The translations under genes were made by a program, and so were the position numbers. Below are positions 49 to 21,741 of a stretch of 27,933 bases of DNA, piece by piece. Every line of letters begins with the position of its first letter. The stretch's first letter is position 1. This stretch comes from a virus. Below the pieces are notes generated by a model that saw only the letters and a program-made list of their open reading frames with translations, ran no database searches and was not told the origin of the DNA. The DNA is taken from IMG/VR virus record IMGVR_UViG_3300022693_002146, positions 1 to 27,933 of that record; one strand, written 5' to 3'.

Positions 49-498
49 TTAGTTCGAGGCGTCAGGATAGCTAGTCCAGTCTTGTGCATCCATTACGAGG
101 TATGAGCTGATCGAACCAGCTGTCGTTTCCGCTACCGCAGTAACGACGTGGATACCAAGGTAACGCTCCATCGACGGAGCCCCCGCCGGTATTGGCAAGA
201 TCAGCTTAAGGCCGACAACCAGTTCCGTCAGCGAGAATGCGCCAGTCTTAACGTGCACAGTTTCAGTACCGTTTACAGTTATAGCCGCAGCTTCATCTGA
301 CACAAGAGAAAACGCAACAGTCGAAGCGCCCCCCGAAAGGAAAGCAGTTGTAACTTCAATCACCCACTTCAGGTTAGCATTTGAGTACAGTTGCCGTCCA
401 TCAGTGTCCAGATCAATAACGTCACCTTCCAATACTGTGGCTATGCCATTATCAACAGCCAACGCAGAAGCAAAGACTAGATTTTTGTCCATTATCAT
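49..498 (-). CDS. Bbp16-like capsid cement (decoration) protein
   Basis: 149 residues, directly downstream of the major capsid gene. The start pattern (MIMDKNLVFASALAV) and the alternation of short hydrophobic beta-like strands with acidic loops resemble the Bbp16 family of cement proteins, which sit on the outside of BPP-1-type heads and lock capsomers together. The arrangement scaffold, capsid, cement matches BPP-1. The start is fixed by an exceptionally strong ribosome binding site overlapping the capsid stop codon. There are no cysteines, membrane segment or signal peptide. Family assignment rests on gene order and general pattern; another type of decoration protein is possible. Confidence 0.7.
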   Translation of the reverse strand: MIMDKNLVFASALAVDNGIATVLEGDVIDLDTDGRQLYSNANLKWVIEVTTAFLSGGASTVAFSLVSDEAAAITVNGTETVHVKTGAFSLTELVVGLKLILPIPAGAPSMERYLGIHVVTAVAETTAGSISSYLVMDAQDWTSYPDASN

Positions 499-501
499 AA
501 C

Positions 502-513
502 ATCACCTCCTTA
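502..513 (-). promoter_or_regulatory. full-length Shine-Dalgarno sequence for the cement gene
   Basis: Read on the minus strand, TAAGGAGGTGAT matches all 12 bases complementary to the usual 16S rRNA 3' end. Its first three bases are the TAA stop of the capsid gene (511-513), and the ATG at 498 follows at normal spacing. This should give strong, possibly coupled, translation of an abundant virion protein. Confidence 0.85.
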
Positions 514-1509
514 CGTGACTCTTACTTCATCAGCGGACAGTGCGTCCACTCGACGAAGTGGGATTTCGTTGAACACAACAGACTTATGCCCACCAACATT
601 GACATACTCCAGCGTTGAATGACTTGTCTCGGCTGCAAGTTGTTGGCGGAAGCGCTGGCGTATGAAGCGCGACATGTAGAAGGCAGGCCGACCAATACCC
701 ATAGGCGGTACCCGTTCCATTGCTTCAAACATCAGCTTAGGCAGGTTGGGACCTGAAGCCGCATCAGCCAACGTATCCGACTTGTCGATATTGCAAATGC
801 GGACTACGTAGCGCCAATCACGGACCGTAAGCCCTGCGTCCATACGGAAGTGCATACGATACGCCTCCATACGGCCACCAGAACCATCAGCATCCTCAAT
901 CGTCTGCTGACCCTTATCGGTCACCTGCATTCCGGCAGTTGAACCTTTCGGGATGATACCGTGTGCGGTATTTGGCCCCCAAACTACAAGCCAGATTGAG
1001 GCGTTATCAGAACCTGTTCCACTTGCATCAATGATATTATCTGCGTTTTCGGCAGACAGATCATTGTAGCGTGTGGAGAAGCCGTCAAAACGCTCAGGAT
1101 TGACATTGGTATCACCGTAGAACAACGTAGAGACAAGCTCCTGGCTTATCCCCTCAATTGTCGCAACCGCTTCAGAGAGACGGAACTCATTCGTATTTCC
1201 GTTCAAATCAGCAAGTGCTTTGTCGACCTCGTTGTAGGCCTCCAGCATCCCAACCGTATCCGTAACTTGGACACGTTGTGATTTGTTTGGCTGTACGCCG
1301 CCGTAGAGGCGCCGCCAGGTGGGGGTTGGCAGGCCGGAACGGATTACCGATCGGTGGCCTGTAGGAAGATTGCCTTCAACGAAAGTCCAGTCAGCCATGA
1401 CTTCGTTCGTCTCGTGCAAAATCTCCACGACTGTTGCCACGGAGCCATCGGGATCGAGGGCCTGAGCAAAGTCAAGGAGAGTCGGATTTGTAGCGGCTAA
1501 AGTTGCCAT
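511..1509 (-). CDS. major capsid protein (BPP-1/Bbp17-like, HK97 fold expected)
   Basis: 332 residues. The N-terminus (MATLAATNPTLLDFAQ, then EGNLPTGHRSVIRSGLPTP at about 44-62, VTDTVGMLEAYNEVDKALA and a FYGDTNVNPERFDGF segment) is the recognisable pattern of major capsid proteins of podoviruses with BPP-1-like heads, which are expected to adopt the HK97 fold. It forms the icosahedral shell. Length is normal for the group. The start has an AGGAG ribosome binding site 6 nt upstream, and the scaffold gene ends 9 nt before it. Downstream is the cement protein. No protease gene or obvious propeptide is visible nearby. Confidence 0.9.
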   Translation of the reverse strand: MATLAATNPTLLDFAQALDPDGSVATVVEILHETNEVMADWTFVEGNLPTGHRSVIRSGLPTPTWRRLYGGVQPNKSQRVQVTDTVGMLEAYNEVDKALADLNGNTNEFRLSEAVATIEGISQELVSTLFYGDTNVNPERFDGFSTRYNDLSAENADNIIDASGTGSDNASIWLVVWGPNTAHGIIPKGSTAGMQVTDKGQQTIEDADGSGGRMEAYRMHFRMDAGLTVRDWRYVVRICNIDKSDTLADAASGPNLPKLMFEAMERVPPMGIGRPAFYMSRFIRQRFRQQLAAETSHSTLEYVNVGGHKSVVFNEIPLRRVDALSADEVRVT

Positions 1510-1518
1510 TTTCTACTC

Positions 1519-2193
1519 CTAGATTACAGTTCCCCCAAACAGTTTATCTGCTCGGGACTTTGCTACCGGAGTTTGAGATCCTTGTACAGGTCTGCCTTCG
1601 CCCGGTACTGCATTCGCAATGTTGTTCAGGAACCGCACCATAGAAAGAGTATTGCCTGCGCCCGTAACTTTGAAAACTTCCTTAAGGGCTTCAGCTTCCT
1701 CGGTGCCTCCTGCGTACAAATCGACTACAGTTAGCGCTTTTGCTAGAGAGGCATCTTGGTTGTCGCCGCCATATGTTAGGTCAGCGGCAACCTCAGCCCT
1801 CCAAGCATCTTGTACTGCGTTCCATTCAGTCACAATGGCTTCTTCAGCCGAGGCCTGTTGGGCCGCAAGTAATTCCAATGAGCCTTTAATAATGTCTCCA
1901 CGATTACCGGCTCCGTTTATCATATCAACAAACTCAGTAAGGGAGTCTGTGTTTGGCTCAAATCCCTCGGGAATGAGGCCGTTTACCGTTTCTGCCGTAA
2001 TAGCTTCGGCACCGAATGTGGACGTAGGCGGAGTATCGCCGAGAAGCGACTTTGGCTCTGCCGGCTCTGCTGCCGTTGGCGGAGAATCAGCTGGCGTTGT
2101 GGCTGGCTCCGTCGTCGCCGGCGTAGGCTCCGGGTTCGGACTCGGCGTCGGATTGGGTTCGGCCGAAGGCTGTGGATCTGGATTTTCTGACAT
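1519..2193 (-). CDS. head scaffolding / capsid assembly protein
   Basis: 224 residues placed just upstream of the capsid gene, where scaffolds lie. Residues 1-45 are almost entirely P, T, S, E and A (repeated P-x-P units) and so disordered. The middle is helical and acidic, and the end (QTPVAKSRADKLFGGTVI) resembles the basic C-terminal tail by which such scaffolds hold capsid subunits. It would shape the procapsid and then leave. Its first 107 bases overlap, in another frame, the end of the Bbp19-like gene. The call rests on composition and position rather than a strict motif. Confidence 0.75.
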   Translation of the reverse strand: MSENPDPQPSAEPNPTPSPNPEPTPATTEPATTPADSPPTAAEPAEPKSLLGDTPPTSTFGAEAITAETVNGLIPEGFEPNTDSLTEFVDMINGAGNRGDIIKGSLELLAAQQASAEEAIVTEWNAVQDAWRAEVAADLTYGGDNQDASLAKALTVVDLYAGGTEEAEALKEVFKVTGAGNTLSMVRFLNNIANAVPGEGRPVQGSQTPVAKSRADKLFGGTVI

Positions 2194-2476
2194 TCTGGTT
2201 CTCCTTCATCATGACTAAAAAAGCGTCAGGGTCAATTTCGGTTATTTGAGCAAGCAGGCGTTGACCAGCACTCTGCACACCACAGTTGAAAGACATGTCG
2301 AGCGCGTTCCGCTCGAAGGGGTTTACGAAAGCTTTACACTCTTCGAGAAAGAGCCAAAGGAAGCGTCTGCCGTCTGCATTTCCTGTAAGCAGGGAAAGGC
2401 CGGCTTCGACTGCATTCTTGTCCTCTTTCGCATATTTCTTTTGTAGGTTTCGGACCTTACGTTCATTTGACGACAT
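2087..2476 (-). CDS. Bbp19-like head-module protein
   Basis: 129 residues. The core GNADGRRFLWLFLEECKAF, then NPFERNA, FNCGVQSAGQRLLAQITEIDP and FLVMMKE, matches the pattern of the Bbp19 structural domain found between portal and scaffold genes in BPP-1-like phages. The molecular function is not established. The first 25 residues are strongly charged. The last 35 residues are polar, low-complexity and encoded in the overlap with the scaffold gene, so their composition is partly dictated by the other frame. The portal gene ends 37 nt upstream. Confidence 0.75.
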   Translation of the reverse strand: MSSNERKVRNLQKKYAKEDKNAVEAGLSLLTGNADGRRFLWLFLEECKAFVNPFERNALDMSFNCGVQSAGQRLLAQITEIDPDAFLVMMKENQNVRKSRSTAFGRTQSDAESEPGAYAGDDGASHNAS

Positions 2477-2513
2477 TATATAGTGTACCCCGCGTTAAGA
2501 CAAGAGCCATATT

Positions 2514-4205
2514 TTAGCCTCCGATAAGCTCCTGCAAGGCGTTTCGCCCGCCGCCGACATCGGCCTGGGACAGGTTTCGCGCAGCATCGGTGAGATCTTT
2601 ACCGACCAGTGCAGCCTGTTGCGCCTCAATTTGTTCCTTCTCGGCCTCAAGTTCCGCCGCCACATCTGCCCGGCTCCGCAGGTTCTTCGCCGGAATGTTA
2701 AGGCGGCTGGCGTAGTCTCGGACAAGTTCATTAAAGTCAGGGATGCGCGCCACATTCGGTGCAATAGCGGAAAGCTCGCCAATAAGCTGCATAAAGCGTT
2801 CGATCGAGCCGGTGTTGGCCGCACGCTGGGCATCGGCAAGAACAGAGACGTACTGGATTTGAATGGTGTTGGTGTCTAGGCCTGGAGGCGGATCAGGGAA
2901 ATTGCCGCGCCGGAGCATTATATTAAACGTGCGGCGGATAACCAGATCAAGATCCTCGCTGTGAAAGCGCTCCAGTACGCCACCAAGAATAAGCATGTCC
3001 TCTGACTTGCGCTCATAGACCTCGGCGGCACTTCGAACAGTCTCCAGTTCCGAAATATTGCGGAATAGGTTGTTGTAGTATATCTCCTTTATTCGAAGCT
3101 GGAGCGCCCTCACACCTTGTGTCATTTCTCCGACTGGCGGATTGACTGTGTAAATTGCCTTCGCGCCGAAAGAGCTGCCGGGGACAAAACTCACACCGCC
3201 TGGAAGAAGGGCATCAGGCTGAGCACGAAGCATCACATCCGCAACAACAGGCGGCCGGATCATTTTATCCATGCTCTGAGCTTTTTGCAGCGTCTCCTTC
3301 TGGAGCTGCTTGATGTCGGGTAGGGCGTCCATAGTTGGCGATGTGCCGTAGGTGCTGTTGCCCTGCAGATCCCATCGCGGCGCTATGATAGGACTTTCAC
3401 GGTAGCCTTTAAGCTCAAGCAGTTCTCCGGGAGCAGCGTTGCCATCTTCCCAATAGAACTCACGGTGAGAGAAAATGTTTAAGATGCTTGAAGCATCACC
3501 CTGAGTGTTTGGCTCAATCAGGTGTGTGATTGAAACGGTTTCAAGAAGTCCACTGCCGCCGACGCTGTATTTCATCCGCGTTCGCTCTGAGACATTTTGG
3601 ATACCGAATTGTCCAACGACCTGCTGAACTTCCATCTGAAATTCGCGGGCCATGCCGACAATTATACGGCGGTCGTCCTGGAAAAGGCGATACTCGCCCA
3701 TAGGCGAATTGTAGAACCGAATGACATCCTCAAAGTCGTCGTAGAGGAGCATCGCGCCGGTTCCGAAGCTGCAAAGCTCGAGGTAGATTACGCCCTGAGA
3801 GCTATAGTAGTTTGACTCTGAGAGAATAATTTCCATCCGACGCTTGGCCTCCTCAAGCCAGACGATATACTCGCGCGGGTAGCTGTCGTTATCTTCAGGA
3901 AATTCGTACAGGCGGAGGCGGAACCAAGGCCGGGATGGAGAGGTAATGCCGTTCATCAGCCCGTGCGCAAGCGTCCGCGCCGCAATCGTCCCCGTAGCAT
4001 CAAGAATATACTTATTCGTCGGCGGCACTTTCATCGCAGGCTGAGTTATACTATTACCCTGCCGGACTAGCCACTCATACTTTCGCGGAAGGAGATATTT
4101 TGCAATCTCTTGAAAATGGGGCCGCCAAAGATCAAAGTCCTCACCCAGCTTCTTAACGAAAGCCTGTTTAAGTTTGAAGGTGGCGGGATCAAGTTTAACT
4201 GGCAT
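2514..4205 (-). CDS. portal protein (T7-type head-to-tail connector)
   Basis: 563 residues, typical for the head-to-tail connecting family (PF12236 type). Seen in order: an N-terminal charged region with RPHFQEIAKYLLPRKYEWL (about 25-43), ATGTIAARTLAHGLMNGITSPSRPWF (about 70-95), the ELCSFGTGAML segment, YRLFQDDRRIIVGMARE, TYGTSPTMDALPDIKQLQ, and EVYERKSEDMLILGGVLERFHSEDLDLVI. These blocks are the usual landmarks of podovirus portals. It forms the dodecameric ring through which DNA is packaged and to which the tail attaches. Its ATG overlaps the stop of the preceding 59-residue ORF by one base, suggesting coupled translation. Confidence 0.92.
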   Translation of the reverse strand: MPVKLDPATFKLKQAFVKKLGEDFDLWRPHFQEIAKYLLPRKYEWLVRQGNSITQPAMKVPPTNKYILDATGTIAARTLAHGLMNGITSPSRPWFRLRLYEFPEDNDSYPREYIVWLEEAKRRMEIILSESNYYSSQGVIYLELCSFGTGAMLLYDDFEDVIRFYNSPMGEYRLFQDDRRIIVGMAREFQMEVQQVVGQFGIQNVSERTRMKYSVGGSGLLETVSITHLIEPNTQGDASSILNIFSHREFYWEDGNAAPGELLELKGYRESPIIAPRWDLQGNSTYGTSPTMDALPDIKQLQKETLQKAQSMDKMIRPPVVADVMLRAQPDALLPGGVSFVPGSSFGAKAIYTVNPPVGEMTQGVRALQLRIKEIYYNNLFRNISELETVRSAAEVYERKSEDMLILGGVLERFHSEDLDLVIRRTFNIMLRRGNFPDPPPGLDTNTIQIQYVSVLADAQRAANTGSIERFMQLIGELSAIAPNVARIPDFNELVRDYASRLNIPAKNLRSRADVAAELEAEKEQIEAQQAALVGKDLTDAARNLSQADVGGGRNALQELIGG

Positions 4206-4384
4206 TAGTCTGTACCGCCGATCAGTGTCCGCTTCTGTATCCGCTCACGGCGCTTGAGGCCGACACTTGAAGTAAGGACGGAAGGCGGCAACAATAAGCT
4301 GGGTGAGAATCTTGATGCGATGCGGCCTGAAGCCAACGAGGGCGGCGTCGGCGGCAGCGGGGCTGGAGCTACTTTTCTATTCAT
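4205..4384 (-). CDS. small hypothetical protein between terminase and portal (59 aa)
   Basis: The ORF runs from an ATG overlapping the large terminase stop (ATGA) to a TAA overlapping the portal ATG (TAATG), so it fits the operon with no spare bases. The product is MNRKVAPAPLPPTPPSLASG..., proline-rich at the start, hydrophobic in the middle (FSPSLLLPPSV) and basic at the end (LKRRERIQKRTLIGGTD). Perfect overlap at both ends argues that it is translated. No function is recognised. Confidence 0.65.
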   Translation of the reverse strand: MNRKVAPAPLPPTPPSLASGRIASRFSPSLLLPPSVLTSSVGLKRRERIQKRTLIGGTD

Positions 4385-5883
4385 CCTTGCATATACTCCT
4401 CACTTAGGTGATCATAGGTAGTCAGAAACTTTGGTCGAAATGCGGTTGGGTGGATGACTATGGGAAAGGCAAAGGTGCAAGCAAGAGCGTCGGTGAAGTC
4501 GGGTGAAGGGAGACCCCGCGCTTTCATAAGGGATTTTGACTCAAGGGTGATTTGTTCTTTGGCGTTAAGGGTGTAAGTAGCGCCCGTCATCTCGTCAATC
4601 ATAAGGCGACCAGCTATCTGGGCCGGAATGGAGCCCGTTGCAAGAAACTCACGTAGGCCCCCATATATCTCAGCCCTCTTATTCATATACTTCACAGCCG
4701 GATCGTTATTTACACCGTCAGGGCGGGAACCAAAGTCTACCTCAAAGACATTTAGACCCAAGGCGCGGCAGCCGTCTACAACGCCTCCGCCCACTCCGCC
4801 GCCATCAATAAACACCATAGCAGCGTTGTGTGAGTTATAGGCAGCCACAACACGTTGGATGGTATAATCAATACCCATTTTCTGATAGAACTCGACCGGA
4901 AGGCTGGCGGCATCGCGGCCCTGTCGCGGCCAGATTACAGTTATATCATCCCCAAAGCGCGCAACATCGACCCCAAGAACGACTGGGGCATGATTTTGGT
5001 CAACGATTTCACGGTCGATTGCATCGGATACGAGCTGGCGCGGGATAAAGCTGCTGGCATCGGTGCGTGGAAACTTCCCGAGCACCCGGACGCGGACAAA
5101 ATCACTATCGAGGCCAAAGTCGTCAATCCACTTCTGGAGCTGTGTTTTGTTTGTCCTCTTAACCTCGCGGGAATCGACTTCGCGCGTCGTCCAGCGGTGG
5201 GCAAATCGGCCACTGTCGAAGCTGTCGCGGAAACGCCCGGTGTTCTTCGTAGGGTTGCCAAAGGTGAACCACATGATCTCAGTGTTGATGTCAGTAAGCG
5301 CGCCCTCAGTCGTCTCGAAGATAATATCCGGTATTGCGGAGGCCTCGTCGAATACGATAATAAGTCTCTTACCTGCGTTGTGCAGCCCGGCAAACGCCTC
5401 CGTATTCCGCTCCGACCACGTAACTATGTCGATGCGCCACTCGCGGGCGCTGGCCTCGTCCTTCGCAAAAAGCGCCGTCGCTGTGCATTTGAAAAGGTCG
5501 TGAGCGATGAAAAGTCTGTACCACTTCGCAATCTCAACCCAGGTCTTGGTCTTAAGCTGGTTTTCGGTATTTGCAGTGACTACGCCGCGCGTGCCCCGAA
5601 AGGTTGAAAAGGCCCACCAGATAAGCCACGCGACGAGGGCGGACTTGCCAACTCCGTGTCCAGAGGTGACTGCGATAAGAATTGCTTCGTTAGTGTTAAT
5701 TATCCTATCGCGGACAAGTTTAAGCATCCACTCCTGCCACTCATCCGGCCCGGTTTCTTTAACTAGCTCAGTCCCCTCCTCGCCCCACGGAAAGGCCCAC
5801 ATGACAAACGCATATGGGTCGTAGGCAAAGGTGCCTAACTCGTCAATCATCTCCTGTTCGATGGTGGTGGCGCTATCGAGCAT
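4381..5883 (-). CDS. terL: terminase large subunit
   Basis: 500 residues, the packaging motor and nuclease. The ATPase domain has Walker A AVTSGHGVGKSALV (about 71-84, K80) and Walker B RLIIVFDEAS (173-182, D179 and E180), followed by the coupling region FGNPTKNTGRF (208-218). The nuclease domain shows the three expected acidic positions: GVDVARFGDD (D306), MVFIDGGGVGGGV (D360) and SPDFTDALA (D465). The start at 5883 is the only in-frame ATG after an upstream stop and has no good ribosome binding site of its own; a 12-codon ORF ends across it. The downstream 59-residue ORF overlaps by 4 nt. Confidence 0.95.
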   Translation of the reverse strand: MLDSATTIEQEMIDELGTFAYDPYAFVMWAFPWGEEGTELVKETGPDEWQEWMLKLVRDRIINTNEAILIAVTSGHGVGKSALVAWLIWWAFSTFRGTRGVVTANTENQLKTKTWVEIAKWYRLFIAHDLFKCTATALFAKDEASAREWRIDIVTWSERNTEAFAGLHNAGKRLIIVFDEASAIPDIIFETTEGALTDINTEIMWFTFGNPTKNTGRFRDSFDSGRFAHRWTTREVDSREVKRTNKTQLQKWIDDFGLDSDFVRVRVLGKFPRTDASSFIPRQLVSDAIDREIVDQNHAPVVLGVDVARFGDDITVIWPRQGRDAASLPVEFYQKMGIDYTIQRVVAAYNSHNAAMVFIDGGGVGGGVVDGCRALGLNVFEVDFGSRPDGVNNDPAVKYMNKRAEIYGGLREFLATGSIPAQIAGRLMIDEMTGATYTLNAKEQITLESKSLMKARGLPSPDFTDALACTFAFPIVIHPTAFRPKFLTTYDHLSEEYMQG

Positions 5884-5911
5884 TATGATCTACATGCGGG
5901 TCAATTGCCAT
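5873..5911 (-). promoter_or_regulatory. possible 12-codon coupling ORF at the terL start
   Basis: An AGGAAG ribosome binding site precedes an ATG at 5911 that opens a 12-codon frame (MAIDPHVDHNAR) whose TAG lies 8 nt past the terL ATG. Because terL lacks its own ribosome binding site, ribosomes ending here could reinitiate at terL. This is inference from layout only. Confidence 0.3.
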
Positions 5912-6014: not shown

Positions 6015-6677
6015 TCAGGTAAAAGTCCGGTACTTTGTGCTCTTAAAAAGGTTATCTGCGCGACTTTCTTTGCGTTCCACCGGAGTCCCAAACAGGACCC
6101 GCTCGGCTTCCCGGCGGCGGACCAGGCCCGGCACATGCTTGTCGCCCACGAGGTGCCATGACCGCATATTCTTGGAAGCGGAGGTGGTGTTACCCTTGTT
6201 GAATTCGCGCAGAACGGTCGAATTAGAAAAGCCCGACACATACTCTGGCTTGGCTTCTCCCTTCTTACCCTGGCCAATGCCGATGTTGTAGGTAAATACC
6301 ACGAAGGCCCCGAACTGGTTTTCGTTGATTGGCGCTTTGATTTTGGACCGGATTTGATCTGCAACTTTTTCCACGGTTCTTTGCAGATACATATCAGCGT
6401 CTTCTCTTGAGATCCTCATGCCTTCGACCGGAGTTATACCAACCCCCGCGCGCGCCGTGGTGCCCCAGCCAATTGTCCAGACGCCGCCAAGCTTATCCCA
6501 GTAAGCCAACGGGCTGAATTTCTCAAATTCCTTGATCAGATCAATTGCGGCTTTATTTACAGGCATACGCTCCAAACGCCGCTCCCATTCCTGGCGTGGC
6601 TTGGCCGGCGGTATAAGCGATTTGGTCGGCCTCCCTTCATTATCAAACATTCCGCGCATTGCCTTATTACGTTCCAT
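6015..6677 (-). CDS. GH24 (T4/lambdoid-type) lysozyme
   Basis: 220 residues. The catalytic block IKEFEKFSPLAYWDKLGG, then VWTIGWGTT, carries the GH24 triad at E52, D61 and T68 with normal spacing. NENQFGAFVVFTYNIGIG (about 118-135) and the final PGLVRRREAERVLF are also family landmarks. It cleaves peptidoglycan glycan strands. The first 40 residues are charged and lack a hydrophobic signal-arrest segment, so it would need a holin or act inside the virion. It lies between the two terminase genes, overlapping the small subunit by 11 nt, far from the holin and GH108 gene at 26.6-27.8 kb. Confidence 0.92.
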   Translation of the reverse strand: MERNKAMRGMFDNEGRPTKSLIPPAKPRQEWERRLERMPVNKAAIDLIKEFEKFSPLAYWDKLGGVWTIGWGTTARAGVGITPVEGMRISREDADMYLQRTVEKVADQIRSKIKAPINENQFGAFVVFTYNIGIGQGKKGEAKPEYVSGFSNSTVLREFNKGNTTSASKNMRSWHLVGDKHVPGLVRRREAERVLFGTPVERKESRADNLFKSTKYRTFT

Positions 6678-7266
6678 CTTCAGCCTCCGGTGTTATGTCT
6701 ATCGCCTCAACCATCCTCGCCTCGAGCGCCCGCTTCCGCGCCGCCTCCACCCGCTCGCCCAAATCATGAGTTACGTGGATGTCAGTCTTCGAACTTGGCC
6801 CCATGCCGGTTCGATCGAGGGCTACAACCATAAGCTCTCTCAGCTCCTTGTTCGTAAACTTGTCCGGCGCCAGCTCAAGTCTGTCCTCAATCTCGCGCGC
6901 GGCCTCGCGGCTTATCCCCGCGATCTGCTCATGGCGATTGAAATAGACCTCATCAGTCCGATCGCGGTAAAACCCTACCAGTTCGCGAAATGTGGGATCG
7001 CCCTGCAGGACGCTGACTCTCGAAGGCTCGTAGCCCATAATTATCCCCGCCTCGCCCGAAGCGGTTCCTGTAGCCAGTAGCCTTGCTAAGCCGTGATGTC
7101 GGTCGCTGAGGCGCTTAATCGGTATCGCCGCCGTCTCGCGCCCAACCGACAGTAGGGCGAGATCAGCCGCCTGCAGGGGTCGAACGACTTCGGCCTCGAG
7201 GTCAATCGCGCGCCGCCCCGGCCCAGCCAAGGCCGCAATGTCAAGCTCGAGACCCAAATCGCCCAT
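6667..7266 (-). CDS. terS: terminase small subunit (putative)
   Basis: 199 residues, first gene of the leftward operon. Residues 57-100 read HHGLARLLATGTASGEAGIIMGY followed by EPSRVSVLQGDPTFRELVGFY, a helix-turn-helix-like pattern in which a GYxxSRVSxLQxDPxFxELV block is typical of phage small terminases. These bind the packaging site and load the large subunit. The C-terminal half is helical and charged, suitable for oligomerisation. Position directly before lysozyme and terL supports the call. The start has no strong ribosome binding site. About 900 nt of repeat-rich DNA lies upstream and could include its recognition site. Confidence 0.75.
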   Translation of the reverse strand: MGDLGLELDIAALAGPGRRAIDLEAEVVRPLQAADLALLSVGRETAAIPIKRLSDRHHGLARLLATGTASGEAGIIMGYEPSRVSVLQGDPTFRELVGFYRDRTDEVYFNRHEQIAGISREAAREIEDRLELAPDKFTNKELRELMVVALDRTGMGPSSKTDIHVTHDLGERVEAARKRALEARMVEAIDITPEAEDGT

Positions 7267-7460
7267 ACTCGCACCTTACACGCGAGCGCGCGCGGGCGCA
7301 AGGAAAATCGCGCCCCGCCCATACTTTCGGCTCACCAAAGCAAAGAAAAAGGCAAAGCGAAGAAACATGAGTGAAAAGGCTGGGTAAGCTTAAAAATCGC
7401 ATTTATTTAGCGAGGTGGTCCCTCCCAACCGGGGAGGGGGTACACCAGCGAAAGGGCCTT

Positions 7461-7480
7461 GTCAAATCACGAATTGTTAC
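7461..7480 (+). repeat. 20-bp direct repeat, copy 1
   Basis: The 20 bases here recur exactly at 7692-7711, and a copy with 16 of 20 matches lies at 7867-7886. The shared pattern is GTCAAnTCACGnnnTGTTAC. A looser copy (GTCATCACACGTTGTTAC) is at 7971-7988. The left end overlaps a minus-strand TTGACA. Confidence 0.8.
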
Positions 7481-7501
7481 TGGGTGAAAGAATTTGTGAT
7501 T

Positions 7502-7522
7502 TTACCCACATATTGTGGGTAA
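7502..7522. repeat. palindrome 1 (TTACCCACA TAT TGTGGGTAA)
   Basis: Perfect 9-bp arms around a TAT centre, followed at once by a 21-bp sequence (7523-7543) repeated exactly after palindrome 2. It shares the core CACATATTGTG with palindrome 2, as expected for two operators of one dimeric DNA-binding protein. Confidence 0.85.
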
Positions 7523-7543
7523 GACTCGAAAGCCTACTAGATG
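7523..7543 (+). repeat. 21-bp direct repeat next to palindrome 1
   Basis: Begins GACTCGAAAGCC and is identical over 21 bp to 7665-7685. In both places it directly follows a palindrome, so palindrome plus repeat forms a 42-bp unit present twice, 142 bp apart. Confidence 0.85.
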
Positions 7544-7565
7544 TTGGTCAAGGCTCGGTCACAAG

Positions 7566-7583
7566 TGTTACAACACTGTAACA
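7566..7583. repeat. inverted repeat TGTTACA-ACAC-TGTAACA
   Basis: Perfect 7-bp arms with a 4-bp spacer, between the two palindrome units. The arm matches the TGTTAC end of the 20-bp repeats, so the same protein may recognise both. Confidence 0.7.
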
Positions 7584-7643
7584 AAGGTAACGAATAGGCT
7601 TGTCAAGTAATATAATGTTACAGAGGTGTAATGAATGTTGATT

Positions 7644-7664
7644 TGACACACATATTGTGTGTCA
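7644..7664. repeat. palindrome 2 (TGACACACA TAT TGTGTGTCA)
   Basis: Perfect 9-bp arms around TAT, sharing the inner CACATATTGTG with palindrome 1 but with different outer bases. The outer changes are matched in both arms, so symmetry is preserved. That is a mark of a selected binding site. Confidence 0.85.
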
Positions 7665-7685
7665 GACTCGAAAGCCTACTAGATG
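7665..7685 (+). repeat. 21-bp direct repeat next to palindrome 2
   Basis: Exact second copy of 7523-7543, directly after palindrome 2. Confidence 0.85.
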
Positions 7686-7691
7686 AGGTGT

Positions 7692-7711
7692 GTCAAATCA
7701 CGAATTGTTAC
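7692..7711 (+). repeat. 20-bp direct repeat, copy 2
   Basis: Exact copy of 7461-7480. Here it lies just after the palindrome unit, whereas copy 1 lies before one. Confidence 0.8.
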
Positions 7712-7866
7712 ACAAGGCTGTCACATACATCACGCGTTTGTTCACCTTATGTCTTGGGCGTGGAGGTGTCAAGCCGAAAGTTTATGACCGGACATACGTG
7801 GGCTTTTAGAGCCCGCCCACGGCGCGCATATGGCCAGTGTGCCATGTCAACGCCTTGTCACAATTT

Positions 7867-7886
7867 GTCAACTCACGGTATGTTAC
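7867..7886 (+). repeat. 20-bp direct repeat, degenerate copy 3
   Basis: GTCAACTCACGGTATGTTAC, 16 of 20 bases as in copies 1 and 2, with both ends conserved. Confidence 0.6.
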
Positions 7887-8023: not shown

Positions 8024-8172
8024 ATATGAATGGAACCCGGACGGGGACGCGCCAAGGGCATGGGGCTCGCGGCTTGCTCTTTGACATTGTTGGGAATTGC
8101 TTGACGCGATAGGACTCTTGGTCCGATGATTGGCGCACATAATGTAATCCATGAATATATGGGAGCCATGTG

Positions 8173-8697
8173 ATGGCAAAACTTAACACGACCGAATTTG
8201 TAAAGAACCTTGAAGCCATGGCGATTGCGATGACCGCACAAGGTCACGAAACATCGGTCAAGCCGATTGATTATCCGGCGATAACAGTCACCGGGTGGTT
8301 AATTTATGGCGCGCGGCGTTGGTATCAAGATCACGTCAATTCGGTTGCCTTGGGCCACCGTACCAATAACGAAAAGTTTTCGGGAGTCGATTTGTTCAAT
8401 GCCCGGGACAAAATGGCAAAGGCCGGTGAATGGGGCTCGCGCGGTACGGGTTCCGGCCTTGATCCGCAAATTGTCCAAATGCTTAATGGCAAATTGTCCA
8501 AATCCGTTGACGGATGGTCGAAGTTAAAAATCGGCAAGCAAACCGAAGCAAGAGTTGACTTGTGGGCCACATTCGACGAGTCCAAGAAAGCGAAATGGAA
8601 CGCCAAGGCCACCGTGATTAAGGCAATCAAAGCGAAAGCAAGCGCGGAAATTAAGGCTTTGGACGATAAGGACGTTCCAGTCGACTTGGACGATTAA
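8173..8697 (+). CDS. hypothetical protein (174 aa)
   Basis: Not recognised. A soluble protein with an aromatic segment TVTGWLIYGARRWYQDHVNS near residue 40-60 and a lysine- and alanine-rich helical C-terminus (KKAKWNAKATVIKAIKAKASAEIKAL) ending in an acidic tail DDKDVPVDLDD. The ATG at 8173 is chosen over an adjoining GTG because GGGAG at 8161-8165 gives normal spacing. It stands almost alone between two large non-coding blocks, which suggests its own strong promoter and an early role such as host takeover or regulation. That role is inference. Confidence 0.8.
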   Translation: MAKLNTTEFVKNLEAMAIAMTAQGHETSVKPIDYPAITVTGWLIYGARRWYQDHVNSVALGHRTNNEKFSGVDLFNARDKMAKAGEWGSRGTGSGLDPQIVQMLNGKLSKSVDGWSKLKIGKQTEARVDLWATFDESKKAKWNAKATVIKAIKAKASAEIKALDDKDVPVDLDD

Positions 8698-8749
8698 GGA
8701 AATTGACGGGGCGGTAATAATGCCGCCCCGCACTCTCACAAGGGTAAAT

Positions 8750-8977
8750 ATGATGAATACCGATGAAGTTGATTTTCGCCTTGATAGCGAAACACGCCAC
8801 GCAATTCTTGCGGCTCTTGATGCCGGAATGCGATTACAAGAAAATCCGCGCAAGTTTCGAGTTATGGGATTTAGAAAAATCCAAGCGGCAATTCGAATCG
8901 TGACCACAAACATTGCAATTCAGCGAGCACACGAAAATTTCGAAAATGCAATGACCACATGGAGACACCAAATTTGA
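8750..8977 (+). CDS. hypothetical protein (75 aa)
   Basis: MMNTDEVDFRLDSETRHAILAALDAGM..., ending in MTTWRHQI. Mostly helical, with no membrane segment or known motif. AAGGG at 8740-8744 supports ATG 8750 or 8753 rather than a further upstream ATG at 8720. It follows the 174-aa gene by 52 nt and is followed 6 nt later by a strong terminator, so the two genes form a small transcription unit. Confidence 0.65.
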   Translation: MMNTDEVDFRLDSETRHAILAALDAGMRLQENPRKFRVMGFRKIQAAIRIVTTNIAIQRAHENFENAMTTWRHQI

Positions 8978-9019: not shown

Positions 9020-9037
9020 GGGATTTTTCCAAATCCC
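9020..9037. repeat. hairpin GGGATTT-TTCC-AAATCCC
   Basis: Perfect 7-bp stem with a 4-nt loop, followed by CATGACTCGAGT. A near copy lies 41 bp downstream at 9061, so hairpin plus following ACTCGAGT form a tandem pair. Confidence 0.75.
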
Positions 9038-9060
9038 ATGACTCGAGTTGGGTTAAGGCT

Positions 9061-9079
9061 GGGATTTCTTCCAAATCCC
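9061..9079. repeat. hairpin GGGATTT-CTTCC-AAATCCC
   Basis: Same 7-bp stem as 9020-9037 with one extra loop base, followed by CATAACTCGAGT. Confidence 0.75.
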
Positions 9080-9115
9080 ATAACTCGAGTACAAAAAGTG
9101 GCGCGACTCGTTATA

Positions 9116-9140: not shown

Positions 9141-9195
9141 CCACACCAACAACTCGGGTTTGACCTGAGCCATACCGGGAATTTACATTGTTAAC

Positions 9196-9264
9196 CGCTA
9201 ATGTGCTATAATGACTCGCGCTAATTAACGCTAGTCCGGCTAAATTCCAAATTTTCCGACCGTA
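9196..9264 (+). repeat. left arm of 69-bp inverted repeat
   Basis: Starts CGCTAATGTGCTATA and ends TTCCGACCGTA. Aligned without gaps to the reverse complement of 9424-9492, 57 of 69 positions match. CGCTA occurs at arm positions 1, 24 and 34 in both arms, and most differences in the first half fall between these words. Confidence 0.9.
9204..9212 (+). promoter_or_regulatory. extended -10 promoter in left arm (TGC TATAAT)
   Basis: A consensus TATAAT with the TGn extension. The -35 is weak (TACATT at 17 nt, or TTTACA at 19 nt). Transcription would enter the 159-nt loop of the inverted repeat. Confidence 0.55.
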
Positions 9265-9423
9265 AGGGGTGGAGCCATACGCCATCTTCAAGATAGTACC
9301 CATACTTCCCCCTGTATCCCGTCCCACGTTCCGTCAGTCTTGTTGTTTTTTCTTTAGTAAGTAAATTTTTTTTTTTTACCAACTGGTCAAAGACTCCCCC
9401 ACCCCAGAACCTTCCCCGACACA

Positions 9424-9492
9424 TACGGTCGGAATTTTTCCGATTTAGCCGAACTAGCGTTATCTAGCGGGAGGCTATATAGCACATTAGCG
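9424..9492 (-). repeat. right arm of 69-bp inverted repeat
   Basis: Reverse complement of the left arm with 12 differences and no gaps. The element 9196-9492 spans 297 bp with a 159-nt central part holding a run of 12 T (9366-9377). I see no target-site duplication at the outer ends. Confidence 0.9.
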
Positions 9493-9504
9493 CTTCGGAT
9501 TCAA
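9476..9504 (-). promoter_or_regulatory. minus-strand promoter at right arm (TTGAAT-N17-TGC-TATATA)
   Basis: On the minus strand TTGAAT (9504-9499) lies 17 nt before TATATA (9481-9476), which has the TGC extension at the same arm position as in the left arm. It points leftward into the loop and so faces the left-arm promoter. Confidence 0.5.
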
Positions 9505-9556: not shown

Positions 9557-9585
9557 TTGACACCGTTGATTTTTTGTGCAAGAAT
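9557..9585 (+). promoter_or_regulatory. candidate early promoter TTGACA-N17-AAGAAT
   Basis: A perfect -35, a 17-nt spacer ending in the extended -10 TGC, and four of six matches in the -10. It lies 90 nt before the first gene of the long rightward series and after the last non-coding structure, so it is the best candidate for driving 9676 onward. Confidence 0.6.
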
Positions 9586-9659
9586 GTGGTGGGTGGGTGC
9601 GCCCGACGACGCGCGCACTCGCCGTTGGTTTTTATGGGCCAAACTGGCAACCGTGAAAC

Positions 9660-9680
9660 CGTAAGGGAGAGAAAAATGAA
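9660..9680 (+). repeat. duplicated translation-start context, copy 1
   Basis: The 21 nt beginning CGTAAGGGAGAG and running through ATGAA are identical to 9875-9895. Both are the ribosome binding sites and starts of consecutive small genes; in copy 2 the TAA is also the stop of the gene before. Confidence 0.9.
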
Positions 9681-9879
9681 ACCGAAACGCACGCTGTACG
9701 TCGAACAAATTGGTGACAGTCACCCCTTGTGGACTTTTGGTGATCTTACGTATCTGGTCGTCCGTGCCATCAACACTACTTATCCGCAGATTGGCGACGT
9801 ACTGACCGAATATATGGTCAACCATGAGATACAACAGGGCATGAGTGTCCATATCAAGGCGGCACATGACAAAACGTAA
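9676..9879 (+). CDS. hypothetical protein (67 aa)
   Basis: MKPKRTLYVEQIGDSHPLWTFG... A small soluble protein, mixed helix and strand, not recognised. ATG 9676 is chosen over an upstream in-frame ATG because GGGAG lies directly before it, and because the whole 21-nt ribosome binding site and start context recurs at the next gene. It is the first gene of the rightward early series. Confidence 0.7.
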   Translation: MKPKRTLYVEQIGDSHPLWTFGDLTYLVVRAINTTYPQIGDVLTEYMVNHEIQQGMSVHIKAAHDKT

Positions 9880-9895
9880 GGGAGAGAAAAATGAA
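9875..9895 (+). repeat. duplicated translation-start context, copy 2
   Basis: Exact copy of 9660-9680. It includes the stop codon of the 67-aa gene and the start of the next gene. Confidence 0.9.
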
Positions 9896-15855: not shown

Positions 15856-16344
15856 ATGAGCAAACAAATTTCAATTCTTGGCGTAGACTTTGATGTAGCC
15901 ACGCCGTATGTAGAAGGGCATATTATTACTGCCCCGGAGGCAAAAGCGCTGAACCAAACCCGCGCCGAAAATATTGCCAACAACTGGCGGAAGAAAGTGA
16001 AGGAGGCCAACGGCGACGAAGCTGTGATCCGGGGGATTAAGAAATCTTTCGCTCAGTACGATCACGATTATGTCTTCACCCTTGCCTCTGCGGGCGGCTC
16101 CCGCTCCACCATGACTCCGCTTGAGAAAGAAAGCCGCAAGGTAGCTCGTTCTTGGCTGATCAACAAGCTGAAAGCTGCCAGTAAAACCCTCAAATCCTAC
16201 ACCGAGGAACATGATGCCGAATACGTGAAGGGCAAGATTGCTGAGGTTGCCGAGATTGACGCAATCCTGAAGATAGCCGCAGAAAATATTAAAGAGGCTG
16301 AGAAGCGCGCTACCAAGCAGCTTGATATTGACATTCCGGTCTAA
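15856..16344 (+). CDS. conserved phage hypothetical protein (162 aa)
   Basis: Begins MSKQISILGVDFDVATPYVEGH and continues IITAPEAKALNQTRAENIANNWRKKVKEA, FTLASAGGSR, then a helical end. The pattern VDYxVATPYxEGHxLTxxEAKxLNQxRxENIxNNxR is familiar from phage replication regions, with no proven function. It stands alone between a promoter and a strong terminator, so it is probably made in quantity; a DNA-binding accessory role is a guess. Confidence 0.75.
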   Translation: MSKQISILGVDFDVATPYVEGHIITAPEAKALNQTRAENIANNWRKKVKEANGDEAVIRGIKKSFAQYDHDYVFTLASAGGSRSTMTPLEKESRKVARSWLINKLKAASKTLKSYTEEHDAEYVKGKIAEVAEIDAILKIAAENIKEAEKRATKQLDIDIPV

Positions 16345-20141: not shown

Positions 20142-20474
20142 ATGCACACATTTAACCGAATTGTCTACCTCTCCGGGCCAATGAAAGATATTCCACACTA
20201 CAACTACCCCCTCTTTGATTCTGTCTCAGAGCGGCTTCGAGATCACGGCCATCGAGTTTATAATCCCGCTGAGTTTCCACACGATGGCCCCCCTGAAAAT
20301 TTTCCTATTCGAACAGCCTTTGCCGCGTACAGCTCTTATATCTGTCTTGAGGCAGACACAATTGTCCTTCTACCAAAATGGCAAGAGTCTCTTGGTGTTC
20401 GGGCTGAATTTGCTCTTGCAAGCATCTGCAAGCTAGATATTTTTGAATGGAGTGATATCGTTGATCTCTGCTGA
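20142..20474 (+). CDS. DUF4406 protein (nucleoside deoxyribosyltransferase-like)
   Basis: 110 residues: IVYLSGPMKDIPHYNYPLFD (7-26), LRDHGHRVYNPAEFPHD (32-48), CLEADTIVLLPKWQESLGVRAEFALA (68-93). This matches the DUF4406 pattern, related in fold to nucleoside 2-deoxyribosyltransferases, with an expected nucleotide or nucleoside substrate. The usual SGPM and aD-tivlLp-W--S-G---E motifs are intact. Whether it is enzymatic is unproven. Confidence 0.88.
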   Translation: MHTFNRIVYLSGPMKDIPHYNYPLFDSVSERLRDHGHRVYNPAEFPHDGPPENFPIRTAFAAYSSYICLEADTIVLLPKWQESLGVRAEFALASICKLDIFEWSDIVDLC

Positions 20475-21741
20475 ATTTGAAGTTATCGACCCCGCTCGCA
20501 TTATCGTCGGCGAGCGCCAGCGGTCTGAGCTAACCGACATCCAAACTCTGGCTGATAGTATTAAGCGCATCGGCTTAATTCACCCAATTGTAGTTGATCG
20601 AGACTACGTTCTCATTTCCGGGGAACGCCGACTCACTGCTGTTCTGTCGATCGGCCTTAATCCTATAACTATTCAATTTGCCGACAGCCTTGATCCGTCT
20701 ACTCGCCACCTTATAGAGCTCGAGGAGAATGTTAAACGAAAGGATCTGTCGTGGAAGGATTATGTTAAGTCAGTAATTGACTATCACAATATCAGACTTG
20801 GAGCAGCTGAAGGTCAATGGGAGATTATTAACACCGCGACTGACCTTGGCATAAGTGCCCAACACACAGGAAAATGCCTACTTGTATCTTCTCTTATTGA
20901 ACATGAGATGGTTGCAGACTGTGATAAGTTTTCTACCGCCTATAATGTCGCTCAAAGGATAAAGGAAAGGAGAGCCGCAAGTGCAACAAAAGAGATTGGA
21001 GAAGAGATTGGCCGAACGCTTGATACAGCAGCGGAAGGATTTGAAAGACATGAAAAGGAAGGAGATGGAGATGGAAGCAGCCATATCAGCAACGAAGATT
21101 TTATTCCTTGGGCTCGGTCTTATTCTGGGGATCGCTTCAACCTTATTCACTGTGATTTTCCTTACGGGATAGGCGTCGGGGATAAATCGGGGCAGTCGGC
21201 ACGGAAGAAGACAGGTGGGTTTGAGGATACGCCAGAGGTTTATGAAAATCTGATCGAACAATTTACTGACAATTCTGAGAGGTTTATTGATCAATCAGCC
21301 CATTTAATCTTTTGGTTTCCTATGGACCGCTATCAATATACTCTTGAAACTTTGGAGGTAAATTGGCGTGTCAACCCCTATCCTCTCATCTGGCACAAAT
21401 CTGATAACACAGGAATACTCCCTGATCCTAACCGGGGGCCTCGACGAACATACGAAACTGCTTTCTTTGCTTCGCGAGGTGATCGCAAAATCGTCCGTGC
21501 AGTTGCTAACAGTATTGGTGCTGTATCAACACGTGAGTTCCATACAAGCGAAAAGCCCCGCCCGGTCCTGACCCACTTTATGAGGATGCTTGTCGATGAA
21601 ACAACCAGAATGTTTGATCCAACCGCCGGGAGCGGAAACGCAGTTAGAGTGGCCGCAGAACTTGGCGCAGCAACCTGTCTTGGGCTCGAGATTAACAGAG
21701 AGTTCGCGGAGGCTGCCTGTAAAAATATATTGCGGAAGTAA
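20461..21741 (+). CDS. ParB-like domain fused to DNA N4/N6 methyltransferase
   Basis: 426 residues from TTG 20461, favoured by GGAG at 20449-20452; TTG 20443 and GTG 20452 are alternatives. Residues 7-75 form a ParB/sulfiredoxin-type domain (TLADSIKRIGLIHPIVVD, then SGERRLTA with GERR at 54-57). A helical linker follows to about 210. The methyltransferase has the catalytic motif CDFPYG (231-236), HTSEKP (361-366) and the AdoMet motif FDPTAGSGN (385-393), in the order of beta-type amino-methyltransferases. It would methylate A or C in phage or host DNA. No cognate restriction gene is seen. Confidence 0.88.
   Translation: MISAEFEVIDPARIIVGERQRSELTDIQTLADSIKRIGLIHPIVVDRDYVLISGERRLTAVLSIGLNPITIQFADSLDPSTRHLIELEENVKRKDLSWKDYVKSVIDYHNIRLGAAEGQWEIINTATDLGISAQHTGKCLLVSSLIEHEMVADCDKFSTAYNVAQRIKERRAASATKEIGEEIGRTLDTAAEGFERHEKEGDGDGSSHISNEDFIPWARSYSGDRFNLIHCDFPYGIGVGDKSGQSARKKTGGFEDTPEVYENLIEQFTDNSERFIDQSAHLIFWFPMDRYQYTLETLEVNWRVNPYPLIWHKSDNTGILPDPNRGPRRTYETAFFASRGDRKIVRAVANSIGAVSTREFHTSEKPRPVLTHFMRMLVDETTRMFDPTAGSGNAVRVAAELGAATCLGLEINREFAEAACKNILRK

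Follow-up and report, generated by a model that had tools for sequence, protein, structure and literature searches.

A symmetric non-coding element at the late/early gene divergence of a group of podophages, and its possible role as a genome-end junction

Introduction

This study focused on the question of what a long, ungapped inverted repeat around a run of thymines might be doing in a gene-free stretch of phage DNA. The window analysed is the whole of the 27,933-bp IMG/VR contig IMGVR_UViG_3300022693_002146, and the element is the 297-bp inverted-repeat stretch at positions 9196-9492. Long non-coding elements that are conserved as symmetry only escape sequence searches, and a literature search, with most subscription papers outside its scope, returned no earlier description of an element of this type.

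Results

The element and its surroundings

The late genes of the window, including those for the portal and large terminase, are directed leftward, the early/replication genes (helicase, Sak4-like, ParB_N-methylase and DUF3987) are directed rightward, and the element is placed between the two sets. The relevant features are as follows.

4381-5883, minus strand: terL, large terminase, used as a query to find relatives
6667-7266, minus strand: terS, putative small terminase, adjoining terL; conserved left neighbour of the element (14 genomes)
8170-8697, plus strand: gene A, a fast-diverging small-protein gene
9168-9175, plus strand: AGCCATAC box, immediately outside the left arm
9193-9264, plus strand: left arm, with CGCTA at 9196, 9219 and 9229, and GCTA at 9220, 9230 and 9240
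9207-9212, reading inward: TATAAT, inside the left arm
9265-9423, no strand: inter-arm loop
9273-9280, plus strand: AGCCATAC box, inside the loop
9300-9305, plus strand: third box, CCATAC, inside the loop
9366-9377, plus strand: T12 run, on the early-gene strand as in almost all relatives
9424-9495, minus strand: right arm, with TAGCG at 9455, 9465 and 9488
9557-9585, plus strand: predicted sigma-70-like promoter (consensus match only), right of the right arm and toward the early genes

Recomputation bore out the earlier note, made from the sequence alone, in its description of the locus: ungapped arms at 9196-9264 and 9424-9492 with 57 of 69 positions matching, a loop of 159 nt holding the T12 run, three CGCTA words that are the exact mirror of TAGCG at 9488, 9465 and 9455, a gene-free block, now put at about 0.7 kb (from 8978 up to the gene starting at 9676), and no visible target-site duplication. 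The arms can be extended without a gap to 9193-9264 and 9424-9495, with 59 of 72 positions complementary. The 10-bp spacing of the GCTA words had been overlooked, as had the two AGCCATAC boxes and the CCATAC in the left flank and loop. This is the top ungapped inverted repeat of the window, with a score of 46 (+1/-1) against 16 or less in 60 first-order Markov shuffles of the whole window, and it is present in one copy only within its own record.

The PHROG terminase match of the putative terS reached only E 0.16, and the gene-A product was detected among the window ORFs only with the HMMER filters off (hmmsearch --max, E 3.8e-8). A homologue of gene A, or a replacement gene, adjoins the element in most relatives. 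The AlphaFold model of the window protein was poor (pLDDT 65) and that of a 20-sequence family was good (pLDDT 91); neither the family model nor the profile matched the known folds and families searched, and no DNA-binding or initiator fold was recognisable. A second, weaker gene-A-like protein is specified at 15856-16344, midway through the early region (E 6.5e-5; hhalign unconvincing), and 20443-21741 encodes an N6/N4 DNA methylase domain fused to a ParB_N domain.

Recurrence among related phages

More than 100 relatives were gathered by terminase and DNA polymerase alignments. Exact arm-word scans of viral contigs gave chance matches only, the window showed no DNA similarity to named phages, and the arm pattern found no match in genome_contigs. 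Many of the relatives carry a single T10-T29 run per genome, upstream of the terminase genes at the late/early divergence, and long ungapped inverted repeats flank this run at the same syntenic place as in the window. Among T-run elements with usable flanks, 29 of 35 scored 17-46, against 16 or less at 382 random centres in the same DNA; the six scoring below 17 were those of Kuura, L331, L344, L354, L368 and L371, some of which lie at the edge of a contig. Across 458,721 bp, 26 of the inverted repeats scoring at least 20 span a T-run and 2 lie elsewhere. Arms of 94 nt were found in G058 and of 55 nt at the T-run of Desulfofustis phage LS06-2018-MD01, which together with Kuura gave the only positives when 16 named phage records were scanned for T10. 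Three genomes (L132, L332 and L333) lack a T-run of 8 but have strong arms (118, 72 and 37 nt). Neither a T-run nor an inverted repeat was present in the available sequence of L123, or in L378, where the contig may break near the element, and runs of at least 10 were present in 0 of the 16 terminase relatives scanned in genome_contigs. Contig L116 (IMGVR_UViG_3300023192_003783) is 99.5% identical to window positions 203-5886 and stops near window position 6855, short of the element.

A number of contigs end at the T-run. That these were physical genome ends was considered and rejected, as G034, G042 and G043 have the T-run at both contig ends; exact overlap of the ends was confirmed in G034 (127 nt) and G043, so that the stops look like homopolymer assembly breaks. 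With the ends of contigs broken within the element joined, scores rose to as much as 53 and arms to 209 nt.

The element is, then, one copy of a control site kept at the same place by dozens of related phages. Relatives without symmetry would, according to the earlier note, have spoken against a function; many of those found carry a symmetric element at the same position, and the reading of the window stretch as a functional cis-element is strongly supported.

Anatomy of the T-run and the boxes

In the first 15 elements the symmetry centre lies 0-28 nt from the centre of the T-run, and the run is on the early-gene strand in all but L352 and W04. A box motif, RTATGGY (for example AGCCATAC), clusters around it: 128 RTATGG/CCATAY boxes were counted within 260 nt, against 13.9 expected, and 18 of 33 elements contained the octamer AGCCATAC, where 1.0 would be expected. 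Boxes outside the element concentrate at the terS start (26 of 47 within 200 nt). A test for words shared between the element and the terS start was significant in some genomes only; Kuura has no AGCCATAC octamer and no excess of words common to the two places.

Symmetry retained while sequence changes

The arms of different phages can seldom be aligned, and their sequence is phage-specific. In the one alignable diverged pair, L368/L372, the check for covariation suggested earlier gave a positive result: in the block -38 to -26 there are 13 pairs in both genomes, of which 6 have changed on both sides with complementarity kept and 0 are broken. The 196 mismatches between arms comprise 91 transitions and 105 transversions, and since transitions exceed the 1:2 ratio expected of unrelated sequence, each arm looks like a copy of the other, as judged from their substitution pattern.

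The structural and terminase proteins of L368 and L372 are mostly 92-100% identical, TerS being 95% identical with its differences outside the presumed HTH segment. The element and the next gene form the most diverged stretch of the pair, with nucleotide identity down to 74% from the 86-90% of most adjacent DNA, which argues that the element belongs with the early side. As TerS is nearly identical though 6 of 13 pairs differ in the arm core, the terminase probably does not read the arms.

Genome ends and GC skew

Caulobacter phage Kuura was found by PhageTerm to have 606-bp direct terminal repeats (PMC9959647). Both copies of the repeat are identical in its record, and the boundary at 43207/43208 lies 56 nt from a T12 run, between one arm and the run, in a copy of the element that is a weak and distant match. 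The other terminal-repeat boundary precedes terS by approximately 144 nt, in the part of the genome that holds the second box cluster in relatives. Kuura is distant from the window phage (polA 34%). Its arms reach a score of 16, which the best random centre matches and the best shuffle of Kuura itself, at 17, slightly exceeds. Because these arms are weak, homology to the element rests on position, the T-run, and GGGCAGT words phased at 9-10 bp.

When GC skew was first checked an origin was expected, and the sign came out opposite. Six near-complete genomes, Kuura included, showed GC skew rising along the genome as a gradient, with its sharpest jump, a drop from plus to minus along the early strand, at the element, and this jump was independent of the switch in gene orientation, which AT skew shows. 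In the averaged profile the step is largest in the 500-bp bin adjoining the T-run on its left, while the maxima of single genomes scatter by kilobases. No cumulative GC-skew minimum fell at the element in the genomes examined, the skew going from plus to minus. The leading strand is usually G-rich, and a plus-to-minus drop would thus mean that forks converge at the element or that a linear genome ends there. In all six genomes, in short, base composition switches strand at the element in the direction expected of an end or terminus. The argument is indirect, and suggests the opposite of a bidirectional origin.

Discussion

A terminal-repeat junction

The terminus of Kuura inside its element, together with the sign of the skew jump, favours a genome-end junction over an origin. 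The reading preferred here, to which we give a probability of about one half, is that the element is the terminal-repeat or concatemer junction and packaging cut site of a T7/LUZ24-like linear genome. On this proposal a conserved, fast-diverging and cis-acting DNA site at the late/early gene junction would recruit the terminase, perhaps via the putative RTATGGY boxes; the enzyme would cut in the loop, so that the T-run and one of the arms would lie on either side of a terminal-repeat boundary. The arms may be kept complementary by a need for the two halves to bind one protein symmetrically, or by fold-back of the DNA. What was computed here comprises the symmetric structure, its repeated occurrence at one genomic position, the boxes, the skew jump and the paired changes of L368/L372; the Kuura terminus is a published experiment, Kuura being the one relative with mapped ends. 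By extension, the ends of the window phage itself would also lie at the element. The divergence of the L368/L372 element and its neighbour gene, separate from the packaging genes, fits an origin or a regulator equally well.

Comparison with known phages is consistent with this proposal. In T7/T3 and the LUZ24-like podophages (PaP3, LUZ24, tf), two transcription units run toward each other, and the genome ends lie at their outer starts, as the element does; the late/early divergence where it is found is the position of the ends in terminal-repeat phages of the LUZ24 type. Terminal repeats and a pair of converging transcription units are described for such phages (PMC3517423). Direct terminal repeats like theirs are shared by the one mapped relative, Kuura (606 bp). 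No long symmetric T-run element was found at the T7/T3 or LUZ24-like junctions in the literature searched. A further analogy, and only that, is provided by SPP1, which packages by the headful mechanism. In the pac region of SPP1/SF6 (pacL-pacC-pacR), recognition regions of repeated boxes flank the cleavage region beside the small-terminase gene (PMC4737164). The likeness lies in boxes that flank a cleavage region, a proposed one in the element, near the small terminase; the SPP1 boxes are direct repeats, whereas the flanks of the element are long inverted repeats that vary in sequence between relatives.

Copying of one arm onto the other

If genome ends are formed at the element, one arm may repeatedly be copied onto the other in the process, by fold-back priming or template switching, so that the two arms change in concert while diverging between phages. 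The element would then be a new kind of viral DNA-end site, in which the information is the symmetry and not the sequence. This is a tentative claim, to which we assign a good deal less weight than to the junction itself. The hairpin-end model of T7 offers an analogy to the element and not a class to which it belongs.

A replication origin

Equally tentative is the reading of the element as a replication origin, which the earlier note had proposed. An initiator, perhaps the product of gene A or of its replacement in L368/L372, would bind phased words in the arms, the T-tract would melt, and bidirectional forks would depart. The words are phased both in the window (GCTA) and in Kuura (GGGCAGT, 9-10 bp), and the layout resembles initiator sites arranged as a dyad around an A/T tract. 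Inverted initiator sites of this type surround the A/T tract of HSV oriS and the SV40 ori, and the iterons of phage lambda can be grouped with such origins. Also shared are the symmetry and phasing of the words on both sides of an A/T tract, and the nearness of early genes. The arms of the element differ in being longer and phage-specific. Gene A or its replacement lies beside the element in most relatives, element and adjacent gene diverge together in L368/L372, and transcription of both gene sets leads away from the element, in the direction that departing forks would take. Against this, the skew jump carries the sign of a terminus, the mapped genome end of Kuura falls inside the element, no initiator was identified and gene A has no recognisable initiator fold, and L132, L332 and L333 lack the T-run despite their strong inverted repeats.

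Operator, RNA and mobile element

A symmetric operator or promoter is a rather improbable alternative, in which a phage regulator would bind the boxes of the element and those at the terS start, thereby controlling the divergent early and late units. The boxes do cluster at both places, a promoter-like sequence lies beyond the right arm, with similar sequences found by eye at the same place in several relatives, and a TATAAT reads inward from the left arm. However, an operator needs no 60-200 nt of ungapped symmetry, of changing sequence, around a T-run, and promoter-like matches around the window element scarcely exceed those in shuffled sequence.

The earlier idea of a regulatory RNA locus fares worse. 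A long stem in the early transcript, serving as a processing site, decoy or riboregulator, would agree with the folding z-scores of the two strands of the window element (-11.4 and -9.6) and with complementarity that is retained while the sequence changes. However, 105 of the 196 arm mismatches are transversions, mismatches compatible with G-U pairing number 34 of 196 in RNA of the early strand against 57 for the other strand, and both the mapped DNA end and the skew jump would be left unexplained. No Rfam family reached its gathering score, sub-threshold matches falling elsewhere only, and we regard an RNA hairpin as very improbable.

A MITE, transposon remnant or site-specific inversion segment, although a short segment bounded by long terminal inverted repeats has the right form for one, can be dismissed as scarcely credible: relatives have unrelated arms at the same syntenic place, the element is single-copy and without target-site duplication, dispersed copies with the same ends were found neither in its own record nor in phages or genome_contigs (where the arm pattern is also unmatched), and the constant orientation of the T-run, save in L352 and W04, means that inversion is not frequent.

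Significance

The podophages that share the element form a large and mostly uncultured group. As a terminal-repeat junction it would predict where these genomes start and end, which is invisible in assemblies, and would provide an accessible system for the poorly understood duplication of direct terminal repeats. As an origin it would supply many natural origin variants, each next to a fast-diverging candidate partner protein.

Other repeated sequences in the window

Several smaller repeats were seen near the element. The block 7460-7886, upstream of terS, holds a 61-nt repeat with copies at 7483 and 7625 (84% identical), each with a hairpin, ACCCACATATTGTGGGT in one form and ACACACATATTGTGTGT in the other, in which a change on one side is compensated on the other; the same block has three copies of TGTCAAATCACGAATTGTTAC or a variant. 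A GGGATTT hairpin followed by ACTCGA, which is also present in the 7483/7625 repeats, occurs at 8857-8882, 9024-9048 and 9066-9090, with two copies just left of the element and one, inverted, within ORF 8720-8977. To the right of the element, two successive small genes are preceded by a near-identical 25-nt ribosome-binding leader, AAACCGTAAGGGAGAGAAAAATGAA, at 9656-9680 and 9871-9895.
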